A DNA stretch of 34,000 nucleotides, taken from NCBI GenBank assembly GCA_021776675.1, contig JAJFFM010000214.1, positions 1-34,000 of the forward strand, read 5' to 3'. The translations under genes were made by a program, and so were the position numbers. This document shows, piece by piece, positions 20,383 to 31,954 of this stretch; position 1 is the stretch's first letter, and every line of letters begins with the position of its first letter. This DNA is from Robiginitomaculum sp. GTDB lineage: Bacteria; Pseudomonadota; Alphaproteobacteria; Caulobacterales; Maricaulaceae. The notes below the pieces were generated by a model. The model was not told the origin of the DNA. It made no database searches and was given only the letters and a program-made list of their open reading frames with translations.

Positions 20383-21747
20383 ATGAAAAAACCTGCTACA
20401 TCTTACCTTAGTCCCGACACTTTAAAACCTACCCTCGAAACCCTCTTACGCTTGGCCAAAAAACATGGCGCAAATGAAGCAGAGGCCGTAGGTGCTTATG
20501 GGCGTTCACTGTCTATCGGGGTGCGCGGCGGTGTTCTTGAAGACATCGATAATTCAGAGGGTAAAGATATTGGCCTGCGGGTTTTTGTCGGACAACGCCA
20601 AGCCTGTGTCTCCAGCTCTGATCTTTCGGGTGACAGTCTGGATAAATTGGCGGAACGCTGTGTCGCCATGGCAAAATTAGCCCCCGAAGATGCGTATTGC
20701 GGTTTGGCGGACAACGATAAATTAGCCAGATCTGAACCGGAATTGGACATTTATGATCCGGCTGATTTGGACGCAGGTGAACTCCTTAGCCGTGCCCAAG
20801 AATTAGAAGCCGCAGCGCTCAGTATAAAAGGCGTTAGCCAAGCCGAAGGCGCCAATGCCTATTGTGTTAAGGGGGCTACTTATTTGATGACATCTGGCGG
20901 GTTCTCAAACGGTTGGAAATCCTCAAGCCACGGTCTTTCGGTCGCGGCCTTTGCCAGCGACGGTGACAATATGGAGCGAGATTATGATTATAAATCTACC
21001 CGCTGGCTAGAAGACCTGCAAGCCCCCGAGAGCATAGGCATCAAAGCCGGAAAACGGGCAGTTTCCAGACTGGGTGCCAAGCAAATGGTATCGAGTAATT
21101 TGCCCATATTGTTTGAGCGCCGGGTGGCCAATAGCCTGCTATCATCATTTACCAACGCGATTTCCGGATCTGCGATTGCCCGCGGTGTTTCGTTTCTAAA
21201 AGACAGCATGGACACGCAAGTGTTTCATGAAAGTATCAATATAACTGACGACCCATATATCGTCCGCGCAGGTGGCTCCCACCCTTGGGACGGCGAAGGT
21301 GTGGCAGGTAAAGCTTTACCGCTTATCGAAAACGGTGTCTTAAAAACATGGCTGATGAATAGCGCTGCGGCGCGCCAGCTCGGACTATCCACAACTGGCC
21401 ACGCCCATAGAGGCATGTCTTCACCACCGGGTATTGCCTGTTCAAATGTCTGGATGGATACGGGCAAAAAATCACCTGATGCACTGATGCAAGATATGGG
21501 CGAAGGCTTGTTTATTACAGAAATGTTCGGCCCATCCCTGAACCCCAATACCGGTGATTACAGCGTCGGCATTGCCGGGTTTGCCATAGAGAACGGCGAG
21601 CGGACTTATCCGGTTAGCGAAGTAACTATCGCCGGTAATTTGCTCGATATGTTCAAAACCATTACCGCTGCTGACGACCTTATTATGGACAACCCTGTGA
21701 CCTGCCCTAGCCTTTTGGTCGAGAGCATGGTGATTGCCGGTGCGTAG
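20383..21747 (+). CDS. pmbA: PmbA/TldE family protein
   Basis: GRSLSIGVRGGVLEDIDNSEGKDIGLRVFVGQRQACVSSSDLS; TGHAHRGMSSPPGIACSNVWM; FGPSLNPNTGDYSVGIAGFAIENGERTYPVSEVTIAGNLLDMF. Confidence 0.92.
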   Translation: MKKPATSYLSPDTLKPTLETLLRLAKKHGANEAEAVGAYGRSLSIGVRGGVLEDIDNSEGKDIGLRVFVGQRQACVSSSDLSGDSLDKLAERCVAMAKLAPEDAYCGLADNDKLARSEPELDIYDPADLDAGELLSRAQELEAAALSIKGVSQAEGANAYCVKGATYLMTSGGFSNGWKSSSHGLSVAAFASDGDNMERDYDYKSTRWLEDLQAPESIGIKAGKRAVSRLGAKQMVSSNLPILFERRVANSLLSSFTNAISGSAIARGVSFLKDSMDTQVFHESINITDDPYIVRAGGSHPWDGEGVAGKALPLIENGVLKTWLMNSAAARQLGLSTTGHAHRGMSSPPGIACSNVWMDTGKKSPDALMQDMGEGLFITEMFGPSLNPNTGDYSVGIAGFAIENGERTYPVSEVTIAGNLLDMFKTITAADDLIMDNPVTCPSLLVESMVIAGA

Positions 21748-22897
21748 CACCAAAAAGGATAATGTGCGTAGCACCAATAAAGATAAAGTGCGTAGCAGCA
21801 ATAAAAATAAAGCGCCTAGCACCAAAAGAAACGATGTGCGTAGCAAAGATTTAGCCCTACTCATAGAAACGGCCCGCACCGCAGGCGCTATCGCGCGGGA
21901 CTATTTCCACAAGGGCAACACCAAAAGTTGGAACAAATCAGAAAACCATCCCGTAACCGAAGCCGATATTGCGGTAAATAATTATCTGGAAAAAACCTTA
22001 CAGAAAGCCCGCCCCAATTATGGCTGGCTATCCGAAGAGACGAAAGACGACGCATCGCGCATAAAATCCAAATATAGTTTTGTTGTTGACCCCATTGACG
22101 GCACCCGCGCCTTTATGGACGGCAGACCACATTTCACAATATGTCTAGCGGTGATTGAAAACGGCAAAGCGATTACCGGTGTTGTCTATAATCCTATTTT
22201 AGATGAAATGTTCGAAGCGGGCCTCGGCGCAGGCGCACGGCTTAACGGTAAGACAATATCACCAAGCAAATGTGCTTCTATTAAGGGCTGTTCCATGATC
22301 GGCTATCCGCGCAAGTTTAGACGTCTTGGCTGGCCCGATATGAAAGTATCCATCCGTAATTCTATGGCTTACCGGATAGTATTGGTCGCAGCTGGTATCC
22401 ATGATGCGGCGGTATCCTTTACACCAAAATCCGATTGGGACCTAGCCGCCGCCACGATTATTGCCAACGAGGCTGGTGCCACGACTACTGATTTAGACGA
22501 CAATGCCTTTTATTTTGCCAAAGACCATATTACCGAAAACGGCGTCATTTGTGCTAGCCCGCATCTGCACGATTTGTTATTAACAAAAATAAGAGAGCAG
22601 GATAACACCCTAAACTCACAACAATTGGAGACTAAAATGTCCGACCGAAAATCCGACAAAAAAGCATCAAAGCAACTTTTACATATCGTCATTGGCGGTG
22701 AGTTAATAGACCCGATGAAAACGGAGTTTATCGATCTGGACAACATGGCATATATTGGCGCTTATCCGAATTATGCCAAAGCTTATGATGCGTGGAAAAA
22801 CGCGGCGCAAAGCACTGTTGATAATGCCCATATGCGGTTCTTTATTTTACATGCGCATGACCTTATCGATCCTGATAATGACGGCATTATAGGGTAG
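21734..22897 (+). CDS. CysQ-like 3'(2'),5'-bisphosphate nucleotidase/inositol monophosphatase fused in frame to a DUF4170 domain
   Basis: IMPase motifs WLSEETKDD, VVDPIDGTRAFMDGRPHFTICLAV, SDWDLAAATIIANEAG; C-terminal LHIVIGGELIDP...FIDLDNMAYIGAYPNYAKAYDAWKNAAQSTVDNAHMRFFILHAHDLIDP resembles DUF4170; no stop between them. Start uncertain: TTG 21734 or a GTG at 21740/21764/21788/21836. Confidence 0.85.
   Translation: MPVRSTKKDNVRSTNKDKVRSSNKNKAPSTKRNDVRSKDLALLIETARTAGAIARDYFHKGNTKSWNKSENHPVTEADIAVNNYLEKTLQKARPNYGWLSEETKDDASRIKSKYSFVVDPIDGTRAFMDGRPHFTICLAVIENGKAITGVVYNPILDEMFEAGLGAGARLNGKTISPSKCASIKGCSMIGYPRKFRRLGWPDMKVSIRNSMAYRIVLVAAGIHDAAVSFTPKSDWDLAAATIIANEAGATTTDLDDNAFYFAKDHITENGVICASPHLHDLLLTKIREQDNTLNSQQLETKMSDRKSDKKASKQLLHIVIGGELIDPMKTEFIDLDNMAYIGAYPNYAKAYDAWKNAAQSTVDNAHMRFFILHAHDLIDPDNDGIIG
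21740..21853 (+). repeat. 24-bp tandem repeat, four units plus a partial fifth
   Basis: gtgcgtagcaccaaaaaggataat / gtgcgtagcaccaataaagataaa / gtgcgtagcagcaataaaaataaa / gcgcctagcaccaaaagaaacgat / gtgcgtagcaaaga. Confidence 0.93.
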
Positions 22898-27751: not shown

Positions 27752-28770
27752 TACGCGCTCCTGAGTTTTGGAACCATAAATATGGCCGCGAAGCCGCGCC
27801 GTTTATCCGCACAGTGCTCAGCCCATTTGGTTGGGTCTACGGCAAAGTCACAGCACGCCGCATTGCCACCACTATACCGTACGACCCGCAAATTCCGGTG
27901 ATCTGTGTAGGCAATGCCAGTGTCGGCGGGGTTGGTAAAACCCCTATCACAGCATATCTGCTCGAGAGTTTGACCCGTATGGGCATCAAGGCCGTGGCAC
28001 TGACCCGTGGGTATGGCGGCAGAGAAAAAGGGCCGGTATTGGTTAAAACCAAACACACATTCAAAGACATAGGCGACGAGCCAATGTTATTGGCACGTAA
28101 AGGCCCCGTTTGGGTATCTGCGGGCCGCGACGACGGAGCGCGCGCTGCCGTAGGGGCTTTGGTTGGGTTTAACAAAACCGGCGCCGAAGTCATTATTATG
28201 GACGACGGCCACCAAAATCCTTTGGTGAAAAAGACGCTGTCTTTGTTGGTGGTGGATGCTGAAATAGGCTTTGGCAATGAGCACGTCTTCCCCGCTGGTC
28301 CTCTGCGCGAGCCCCTAGAGGCGGCGCTATCCCGTGCCGATGCGGTGATTTTGATGAAGCCAACGCCGGACTATGAGGTGAGCGCAGACCTTTTGGCGCA
28401 GCTTAAACCCCTTCCGGTTGTTGCTGCGCATCTTATACCCTATGCTCAACTGCCTAAAGGTAAGCTTTATGCCTTTGCAGGTATTGGTCGGCCCAATAAG
28501 TTTTTTGATGCCCTGATACGGGCGGGTGCAGATCTGGTCGAGGGGCAACCTTACCCCAATCATTATGCCTATAAAGATACGGATATGAAAAACCTGATCG
28601 ACTTGGCCCGCGAAGATGAAGCCACCTTGATCACCACTGAAAAAGACTATGTTCGCATCCCCAAGGGCTTTCAAAAACATGTAGCCGTCTGGCCTGTATC
28701 CGTTCAGTTCGAAGATGAGCTTACGCTGCGCCGTATCTTGCATCCTATTGTCGCAGTAACAAAAAACTGA
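27748..28770 (+). CDS. lpxK: Tetraacyldisaccharide 4'-kinase
   Basis: PVICVGNASVGGVGKTPITAYLLESL; GYGGREKGPVLV; IIMDDGHQNPLVKKTLSLLVVDAEIGFGNEHVFPAGPLREPL. Confidence 0.95.
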   Translation: MIRAPEFWNHKYGREAAPFIRTVLSPFGWVYGKVTARRIATTIPYDPQIPVICVGNASVGGVGKTPITAYLLESLTRMGIKAVALTRGYGGREKGPVLVKTKHTFKDIGDEPMLLARKGPVWVSAGRDDGARAAVGALVGFNKTGAEVIIMDDGHQNPLVKKTLSLLVVDAEIGFGNEHVFPAGPLREPLEAALSRADAVILMKPTPDYEVSADLLAQLKPLPVVAAHLIPYAQLPKGKLYAFAGIGRPNKFFDALIRAGADLVEGQPYPNHYAYKDTDMKNLIDLAREDEATLITTEKDYVRIPKGFQKHVAVWPVSVQFEDELTLRRILHPIVAVTKN

Positions 28771-29693
28771 TGGCAGTATTTTTTAAGCATATAGGATGGC
28801 GGTTAGAAGTGTTGGCCTATGATTTTATCCGCTTGCTGATGGTACCGTTCACCTTAAATCAAATATCTGGTTTTGCCGGATGGTTAATTGGGGTTATCGG
28901 CCCCAAAACATCAAAACACCATATAGCCAAGACCAATATGAAATTGGCATTTCCAGACGCGGATGATGCACAAATAGATACCTGGCTTAAGGAAAGCTGG
29001 AACCGTATGGGACGCACATTTGGCGAGTTTCCCTTGCTGGGTCGTATTAAGGTATTTGATAAAAACTCCAATGTCGAGGTCGTCGGGCTAGAAATACTGG
29101 AGAAATTAAAGCGCGACAAAAAAGGGGCGGTCTTAATCTCAGGTCATTTCGCCAATTGGGAATTGATGGCGGCAGTATTTTCTCAAGCCAAGCTGCCCGT
29201 GCGTGTGACTTACCGCCCGACCAATAATCCGTATTTCGATAAGCGTATCCGCGCACAAAGAAAAGCATATGGTATTGAACTTATGGTCGCCAAATCTGGC
29301 CCCAAAGGTGCCAAAGAGCTGATACAAGCATTGCGCATGGGCGATAGTGTAGCGCTGCTCAACGACCAGAAATTTAACGAAGGCATCGAGATTCCATTTT
29401 TCGGTCACGGCGCTATGACCGCCCCCGGCCCGACCCGTCTTGCCATGCAGACCGGCGCACCCCTCATCCCCATGTCAATCGTGCGCACAAGCGGCACAAA
29501 TTTCCGCGTGACCATCCACGAAGAAATTAAACCCGTGGATACAGGCAATAGCCCAGAAGATAAAAAGGCCGACATCCGCGCCACGGTCATAAAAATCACG
29601 CAGTTCATAGAAGACCAAATCCGCCAAAACCCTACCGACTGGTTCTGGGTCCACAGACGCTGGCCGAAAAATATGTATAAGCGGGAGCCTTAA
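28770..29693 (+). CDS. Lipid A biosynthesis lauroyl acyltransferase family protein
   Basis: SWNRMGRTFGEFPLL; VLISGHFANWELMAAVF; TYRPTNNPYFDKRI; DQKFNEGIEIPFFGHGAMTAPGPTRLAMQTGAPLIPM; C-terminus NPTDWFWVHRRWPK. Confidence 0.93.
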   Translation: MAVFFKHIGWRLEVLAYDFIRLLMVPFTLNQISGFAGWLIGVIGPKTSKHHIAKTNMKLAFPDADDAQIDTWLKESWNRMGRTFGEFPLLGRIKVFDKNSNVEVVGLEILEKLKRDKKGAVLISGHFANWELMAAVFSQAKLPVRVTYRPTNNPYFDKRIRAQRKAYGIELMVAKSGPKGAKELIQALRMGDSVALLNDQKFNEGIEIPFFGHGAMTAPGPTRLAMQTGAPLIPMSIVRTSGTNFRVTIHEEIKPVDTGNSPEDKKADIRATVIKITQFIEDQIRQNPTDWFWVHRRWPKNMYKREP

Positions 29694-29749: not shown

Positions 29750-30172
29750 CTACAGCTGAGTAAGCTGTTGGAAAACACTTAACCTATCAGCAACTTGCCA
29801 ATGACCAGATATACGACTTCCTTCAAACTCATACATTGTTAGCCCTGACATTTTAATTTTCTTCCCTGTTGCAGGAATTCCCGGAATATCCCCTAAGTGC
29901 GTTCCGTGCCACGTCCAAGCAACGGCTACGCACCCATGTTCTTCAATCATCTTAACGACCGTGAAGACCTGATCAGGCGCCATAGCTCTTGATTGAACGA
30001 GACGTTCTTTGAAGCCCTCAACCGTTAGAACCTTACCGTCCCATGGATCACCGGGGTCATGTTTGATTGTGTATGTATCAGCTAGGTATTTACTGACACA
30101 TTCCACACGTCCGTCAGTCCATATATCTTTGAGGAAGTTTGCCAATATTTCTTTATTTGACGTATTGGTCAT
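29750..30172 (-). CDS. SnoaL-like / NTF2-fold polyketide cyclase-like protein
   Basis: NFLKDIWTDGRVECVSKYLADTYTIKHDPGDPW...VAVAWTWHGTHLGDIPGIPATGKKIKMSGLTMYEFEGSRISGHWQVADRL. Confidence 0.85.
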   Translation of the reverse strand: MTNTSNKEILANFLKDIWTDGRVECVSKYLADTYTIKHDPGDPWDGKVLTVEGFKERLVQSRAMAPDQVFTVVKMIEEHGCVAVAWTWHGTHLGDIPGIPATGKKIKMSGLTMYEFEGSRISGHWQVADRLSVFQQLTQL

Positions 30173-30618
30173 ACGGCACCCCCCAACACCATATGAGGCT
30201 GTTCATTGGATGTTTTCTCTCTTGAGATACCGCCTTCATCGACCCTGCATGTGATACGTTTGCGCATATTTGAGAAACTATCGAAACTCACAACGTCGAT
30301 AGGTTTTTCTAATTCCAATGTGAGTTGGTAACGGTTTCCTTTAGACTGCTTTTGCAGCCCAATAATTTCACCAACAATTTTTTGGCCAAGATAGACACCG
30401 TCTACGGTCTGGCCTATTTTTAACGTCGACAACATGGAGTTTGTTTGGGCGGCAGCATATAGACCGTTCCAATCTTTAAACCCGTGTTGATGGGCAAGTA
30501 TTTCCAGGGACTTACTATGATTGATTAAAACACCATTGTCAGTTAGCTCTGCTCTCAATCGTTTTGCTTGTTTTTTTAGCGTGCCGATTTGCGGCACTTG
30601 GGTATGGCTATCACTCAT
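30169..30618 (-). CDS. Glyoxalase-superfamily-associated protein (hypothetical)
   Basis: LKKQAKRLRAELTDNGVLINHSKSLEILAHQHGFKDWNGLYAA; 4-bp overlap with the downstream SnoaL-like gene suggests an operon. Confidence 0.65.
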   Translation of the reverse strand: MSDSHTQVPQIGTLKKQAKRLRAELTDNGVLINHSKSLEILAHQHGFKDWNGLYAAAQTNSMLSTLKIGQTVDGVYLGQKIVGEIIGLQKQSKGNRYQLTLELEKPIDVVSFDSFSNMRKRITCRVDEGGISREKTSNEQPHMVLGGAV

Positions 30619-30819: not shown

Positions 30820-30918
30820 GGCTCAACACCAACACCTTTATTTAGGTGCGAGTACCACGGTCATAAAAATCACAGAGTTCATAGAAGAGCAAATCCGCCA
30901 AAGCCCAACCGATTGGTT
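30820..30918. pseudogene. Chimeric remnant: divergent infC 3' end (minus sense) fused to a divergent lpxL 3' fragment (plus sense)
   Basis: 30820-30864 resembles 31259-31302 (infC stop region); 30855-30918 matches 29581-29644 with 6 differences in 64 nt. Confidence 0.88.
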
Positions 30919-31204
30919 ATTTCGTTGGTTTGTACTCTGCCGCAGCTTTCAAGGCTTCTGGTGTTGGAAACCATTTCTTTTTGCGGCTTCTTATGGGTAA
31001 GCATGTGACAATTACCGCTAAGATACCGGGAACATATAATATTGCTGCAGGATATTTTCCGGAAGGCAAATACTGAAAAACCAAATAACCCCCAACCAAG
31101 CCAACAATAATACTAATAACAAAGGCTTTAATTGCTGAACGTATTAATTGCTTAAAGCGTTCATGGTCTCTCGCTAAATCTTGTTCATCAATAATTTTGT
31201 TCAT
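30917..31204 (-). CDS. Small hypothetical membrane protein (two predicted TM helices)
   Basis: MNKIIDEQDLARDHERFKQLIRSAIKAFVISIIVGLVGGYLVFQYL...AAILYVPGILAVIVTCLPIRSRKKKWFPTPEALKAAAEYKPTK*. Confidence 0.65.
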   Translation of the reverse strand: MNKIIDEQDLARDHERFKQLIRSAIKAFVISIIVGLVGGYLVFQYLPSGKYPAAILYVPGILAVIVTCLPIRSRKKKWFPTPEALKAAAEYKPTK

Positions 31205-31275
31205 TGCGTCCCCTTTGAAGATTATTGTTGTAGAGTTTTATAACAGATGCAGCAGCACGGCTCAACACCAACACC

Positions 31276-31812
31276 CTATTTAGGCGCCAACACCATAGTC
31301 ATCAACCGTCCTTCGGTCTTGGGGGCGAATTCTACTTTGGCCGTTTCTTCGAAGTCTTCTTTGACACGGGTGAGCAAATCACGGCCTAGGTTCATATGGG
31401 CCATTTCGCGGCCACGGAAGCGGATAGTAACTTTTACCTTGTCCCCACGATCAAAGAATTTCTGCATGGCTTTGGTTTTAACCTTATAATCATGCACGTC
31501 GATATTTGGACGCATTTTAATTTCTTTGAGCTGTTGTTTCTTTTGGCGTTTTTTATTTGCAGACTTTTTTTTCTGCTCTTCAAACCGCATTTTACCATAA
31601 TCCAGAACTTTGCACACAGGCAAATCAGGGCTAGGCGCAACCTCAACCAAATCAAGCTTTACGGAACGGGCATAACCTAAGGCTTCGTCAACAGCGACGA
31701 CACCTTTCTTTTCACCGGTTTCTGTAATGAGTAAAACTTTGGACGATGTAATTTCATCGTTTATGCGCGGGCCCCGTTTTTTGGGCGGCGCGGCGTGTGG
31801 TCTTCGGGCTAT
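31276..31812 (-). CDS. infC: Translation initiation factor IF-3 with a non-canonical ATA start
   Basis: Hand-extended N-terminus (ATA)[81 protein letters not shown]; aggag SD five nt upstream of ATA. Confidence 0.93.
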
Positions 31813-31954
31813 GCTGGTCTCCTAAATAACTGCATTCATGTATCCTTTATTACGGTACGGCAAGAATATGGCGGTTTGCTACCGTTAATTCAAGAACTGA
31901 ATCAGGGTTTGCGGCGATTTTACGCAACTAGAGAAGTTTATTTGGCAGCGTGGT

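Follow-up and report, generated by a model that had tools for sequence, protein, structure and literature searches.

A fused infC/lpxL remnant between lpxL and infC in a Robiginitomaculum-type genome, probably left by unequal recombination between two divergent alleles

How did 99 bases lying between lpxL and infC, both of which are whole, come to contain a piece of each? The question was examined in a window of 34 000 nt (the whole stretch of DNA analysed), which is contig C129 of a 2.36 Mb draft genome consisting of 239 contigs. The genome is probably a metagenome bin, as its relatives are; within the named genome set these are bins of Hyphomonadaceae of the Robiginitomaculum type. The interval begins with a full-length resident lpxL (lipid A acyltransferase; 28770–29693, plus strand; Pfam PF03279, E = 9.7e-55) and ends with an intact infC (IF-3; 31276–31815, minus strand; PF00707, IF3_C, and PF05198, IF3_N), which is 96% identical to that of genome G003. 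The codon at the start position of infC, placed by working back from the IF3_N domain, is ATA (31813–31815, minus strand), a rare start codon; the first in-frame ATG, GTG or TTG, at 31650, would remove the N-terminal domain. Between the two genes lie, in order, two minus-strand genes here called X, the 99-base scar and a third minus-strand gene, Y. Gene 1 of X encodes a Glyoxalase_8 (Glx8) family protein (30169–30618; PF20066, E = 7.8e-53) and gene 2 a SnoaL-like protein (29750–30172; PF07366, E = 5.5e-27). Y (30917–31204) encodes a 95-residue protein with hydrophobic stretches that belongs to no Pfam or PADLOC family. Elsewhere in the window, at 21742–21845, a 24-base unit (GCGTAGCACCAA...) is repeated four times head to tail.

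The scar (30820–30918) is a genuine fusion of the leftover ends of both genes. Its first part, infC' (30820–30857, minus strand), comprises the last codons, the stop codon and the 3' flank of an infC allele: 17 nt (30820–30836) repeat the resident flank (31259–31275) exactly, and the coding end reads VLAPK* with five silent differences. The second part, lpxL' (30855–30918, plus strand), corresponds to lpxL codons 271–291 and is a direct repeat of 29581–29644 in the resident gene (plus strand; repeat D1), with 58 of 64 positions identical (91%, without gaps; E = 4e-19 when the whole genome was searched); against genome G008 the count is 57 of 64. The original prediction had described such a chimera, including an lpxL copy with six differences in 64 nt and the frame MTVVLAPK* in the scar against MTMVLAPK* in infC, and both repeats and both readings are present; on the lpxL side the frames read VIKITEFIEEQIRQSPTDW in the scar and VIKITQFIEDQIRQNPTDW in the resident gene. 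The chimera is unique in its own genome, where the scar used as a query matched itself and the resident lpxL and infC ends and nothing further. A repeat scan of the whole 34 kb returned the 64 nt pair as the sole two-copy repeat of such size, and the 17-mer, with one mismatch allowed, occurs at only its two sites in the 14 genus genomes. No second chimera was found across 137 family genomes, in which the scar matched resident lpxL genes or short chance stretches. No RNA family or terminator was detected in the scar, terminators being not above chance.

The two parents meet at ccacggtcat (30855–30864), where 8–9 of 10 bases are identical between them; random 10-mer pairs drawn from both gene ends match equally well at a frequency of 4e-5 to 6e-4. 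The Val codon of the scar falls within this joint. Since the infC genes compared have Met at this position and the C comes from the lpxL strand, the apparent Met-to-Val change was probably created by the joint and is not a substitution. The exact shared sequence would therefore be CCA, within the 10 nt stretch; an exact microhomology of 10 nt holds only if infC' truly had GTG. A second joint (30916–30919) connects lpxL' to the 3' end of Y: at about 30918 lpxL' passes directly into the stop codon of Y, and by comparison with the congener G006 approximately 125 nt are missing, comprising approximately 50 nt of the lpxL end and approximately 75 nt of the lpxL–Y spacer.

Relatives indicate what the interval may have looked like without the scar. 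lpxL and infC are adjacent in three of the 14 genus genomes (our own, G006 and G008), so that the adjacency itself is a trait of few genomes. G006 has the order lpxL–Y–infC with a gap of 434 nt, without X and without the scar, and is the only one of 98 relatives in which Y was found (77%). In G008, the nearest relative by DNA identity over lpxK–lpxL (84.5%), the gap holds three other genes, which by sequence reading encode a 295-residue protein, an XRE-like protein and a RelE-like protein. The content of the gap is variable and, because G006 has lpxL–Y–infC and G008 other genes, Y was probably in the gap before X and the scar were inserted. The prediction of variable cargo in this interval is thereby borne out, but its extension to a hotspot recombining through conserved flanks says more than the data do: no more than three of 14 genus genomes have lpxL and infC side by side, and it is the downstream side of lpxL that is variable in general. 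The remaining genus genomes carry several different kinds of sequence 3' of lpxL. The RelE-like and XRE-like genes of G008 lie at L048:2687–3300. By reading, an XRE-type sequence similar to that of G008 seems to lie directly 3' of lpxL in G004 and G009; a toxin–antitoxin-like pair seems to recur near lpxL.

X and Y are unrelated to each other. X resembles a locus in G011 (83% over 590 nt); as the similarity reaches 145 nt upstream of Glx8, to 30763, the boundary of the X segment lies between 30763 and the scar at 30820. Glx8 also adjoins SnoaL in three of 99 relatives (G012, G044 and G020), so the pair co-occurs in scattered genomes. The GC3 of X is 40–42%, against 54% for lpxK and lpxL, and both X and Y lie below lpxK, lpxL and the glycosyltransferase gene. 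A plasmid origin of X found no match in PLSDB, and no PADLOC family indicated a defence function for the cargo.

The gene order led to the prediction of a tandem duplication of the lpxL–infC interval. In its plain form, the genome's own lpxL–Y–infC would have been duplicated through the microhomology, X would later have taken the place of one of the two Y genes, and the fragments would have decayed where they lay. The gene order and the match at the joint fit this reading, as does the 17 nt infC flank, which is the same as that of the resident. The coding end of infC' does not: outside the joint it differs from the resident at five of 18 bases, all silent, a pattern with a probability of 0.00035–0.0017 under simulated neutral change, the range depending on transition bias. 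Because such a pattern is improbable under neutral decay, infC' is taken to have diverged inside a working infC gene and not as a decaying local duplicate. The six changes in lpxL', three of which alter the amino acid, fit neutral change when taken alone (P = 0.13–0.19) and by themselves cannot tell an imported from a decayed origin; the two pieces taken jointly give P = 0.0009–0.0025. The claim that the fragments diverged while functional hence holds for infC', with lpxL' uninformative on its own. Nevertheless, lpxL' encodes Glu, like the lpxL genes of G004, G008, G011, G002 and G007, at a position where the resident lpxL has Gln, which argues that the scar is not simply a decayed resident copy, and lpxL' is as distant from the resident (58 of 64) as the resident is from G008 (57 of 64), a species-level distance. 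A tree of the 64 nt lpxL' and a comparison of the 18 nt infC' gave no placement, the fragments being too short. A plain duplication is disfavoured since the related cargos and neutral differences that it would leave are both unseen: no second whole interval with its cargo is present, and X in place of Y requires an additional event. What stands of the predicted duplication is the order, which is that left by an unequal exchange; a plain duplication of the resident interval is rather unlikely, given that the Y arrangement is shared with G006, that X and Y have no relationship and that infC' does not look like a product of neutral decay. The accompanying proposal, of alleles from a related strain instead of simple decay, is favoured by the silent-only divergence of infC'. 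The 17 nt past the infC stop codon (GGTGTTGGTGTTGAGCC) are identical in scar and resident; G006 matches this flank in its first 11 bases only.

A different origin of the two pieces would be short filler, templated by lpxL and infC when X was inserted by end joining. That they are short and adjacent would suit such filler, yet they stand in the orientation and order expected of an allelic exchange, neither is identical to its resident gene, and no Ku was found in this genome (bin 82% complete). We give this account hardly any weight.

The best explanation, and in our judgement the probable one, is that two lpxL–infC alleles carrying different genes recombined unequally, homologously on one side and illegitimately on the other (homology-facilitated illegitimate recombination, HFIR), the scar being the new joint. 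One allele would have been lpxL–X–infC' and the other lpxL'–Y–infC. We infer that DNA of one entered a cell carrying the other and paired homologously on one side, at lpxL or infC or at sequence beyond either gene, while on the opposite side the 3' part of lpxL was joined to the 3' end of infC at the short imperfect match CCA...GGTCAT. The product would be lpxL–X–[infC' end/lpxL' piece]–Y–infC, in which both cargos are retained and both housekeeping genes are whole, the overlapped ends remaining as a dead scar with a joint like that of a tandem duplication. The end of lpxL', as far as the Y stop codon, would have been lost in a deletion, later or simultaneous. The infC'/lpxL' joint has the short match of an HFIR product (CCA exact, 8–9 of 10 identities).

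In favour of such an exchange are the X relative elsewhere in the genus (in G011), the lower GC3 of X, the uniqueness of the joint, the gap contents of G006 and G008, the species-level distance of lpxL' and a match at the joint better than random. Two further points may be listed on the same side, neither of them proof: a ComEC gene is present in this genome, as in most control genomes, and Ku was not detected. Against it, the second parent is hypothetical, the arrangement lpxL–X–infC having been found in none of the 14 genus genomes or 99 relatives; infC' is uneven, with an identical 17 nt flank against five of 18 bases differing in the coding end; an extra deletion is needed at 30918; and the window comes from a metagenome assembly. 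Because Y occupies the same place in G006, a recipient lpxL'–Y–infC and a donor lpxL–X–infC' are slightly preferred. The preference is no more than slight, since no breakpoint is visible in lpxK–lpxL against five congeners, and G008 has many N in lpxL, which inflate identity. A breakpoint after 29198, suggested by an apparent drop in identity to G008, was discarded as confounded by these N.

Two strains living side by side and joined by error in the library or the assembly would also bring two alleles together, and the scar halves do resemble different alleles, in a draft that is fragmented, 82% complete and probably a metagenome bin. The overlap at the joint (at most 10 nt) is nevertheless too short for usual assembly overlaps, further joints exist (X/infC' and lpxL'/Y), the flanking gene order is that of G006 and G008, and comparable lpxL tails occur in two other assemblies. 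An artefact of this kind is improbable.

These tails were found by self-comparison of 47 lpxL loci of the named genomes, which yielded two further tail pieces, both downstream of lpxL, on the same strand and with other genes between. One, in G010 (L095), is 49 nt long (94%, three in-frame silent changes) and lies 2.3 kb downstream; the other, in L113, is 59 nt long (85%) and lies 2.4 kb downstream. The extra tails, at L053:3616–3669 (G010) and L113:5467–5523, are in frame with mostly silent differences, and the genes between are unrelated. No head or middle pieces of lpxL were found in the scan, and among 419 ORFs of the same loci one case of a tail piece of another gene was seen. With the window, which prompted the search, three lpxL cases are suggestive of a preferred landing place, although the counts are tiny, and the downstream side of lpxL may be a recurrent one. 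It is a tentative, rather doubtful extension that in Hyphomonadaceae and their relatives the lpxL 3' end captures genes repeatedly, incoming DNA pairing in lpxL and being pasted downstream, with tail remnants left beyond each cargo. If true, the order in which genes were gained could be followed from lpxL remnants and, should the tails prove a common marker, such events could be counted and dated across genomes.

Tails of this kind also resemble the att sites of islands, and site-specific insertion of a small integrative element or gene cassette at the lpxL 3' end, with the distal fragment as its displaced attachment site, might be considered: the repeat in G010 and L113 is the lpxL 3' tail, and GTTGAGC in the infC flank fits, by sequence reading, the integron core GTTRRRY. 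But the cargo has no integrase, with only SnoaL, Glyoxalase_8 and the 95-residue protein between lpxL and infC; the repeated codons are 271–291 here and 289–306 in G010, i.e. there is no common core; and the infC' piece is left unexplained. Such an element is very improbable. The integron reading of GTTGAGC was dropped, as no integron integrase scored above the TIGR02249 cut-off in the 14 genus genomes (our own bin being 82% complete); weak integron-integrase matches also occur in 13 of 14 control genomes.

The one-sided exchange preferred here has precedents. HFIR, homologous on one side and illegitimate on the other, is an established mechanism (PMC3240628; PMC2884548), described in Acinetobacter, Streptococcus pneumoniae and Pseudomonas stutzeri, and at a low level in Escherichia coli conjugation (PMC3240628; discussed in PMC2884548). 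The scar is a clear and unusually readable trace of a process already known and does not represent a new system: most likely, foreign DNA from a sister lineage was pasted in imprecisely, and the divergent-allele reading is favoured over plain duplication. Once species-level divergence has set in, the joints left by imprecise gene import can rarely be read; in this instance both parent genes, the cargo and a relative lacking the scar are identifiable, which provides a natural example of one-sided recombination among uncultured Alphaproteobacteria. As in HFIR, one conserved flank would anchor the incoming DNA, a short match would make the other joint, and new genes are gained between housekeeping genes. 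Unlike the described cases, the event is read from one fossil joint with an unseen donor, and both cargos are retained, so that the product resembles a tandem duplication. HFIR has also been invoked for parts of old alleles behind new inserts in the T6SS and Rhs loci of Vibrio cholerae (PMC5361080), where, as here, genes are inserted beside a conserved gene and parts of the old allele are displaced downstream and kept; in contrast to those leftovers, the lpxL and infC pieces are 38–64 nt long and unlikely to have a function, and the cargo is of a kind other than toxin/immunity. In S. pneumoniae transformation merodiploids, unequal pairing likewise yields a tandem-duplication joint (PMC3784515), but over approximately 100–900 kb and through long repeats, compared with approximately 1.3 kb and a short match here.
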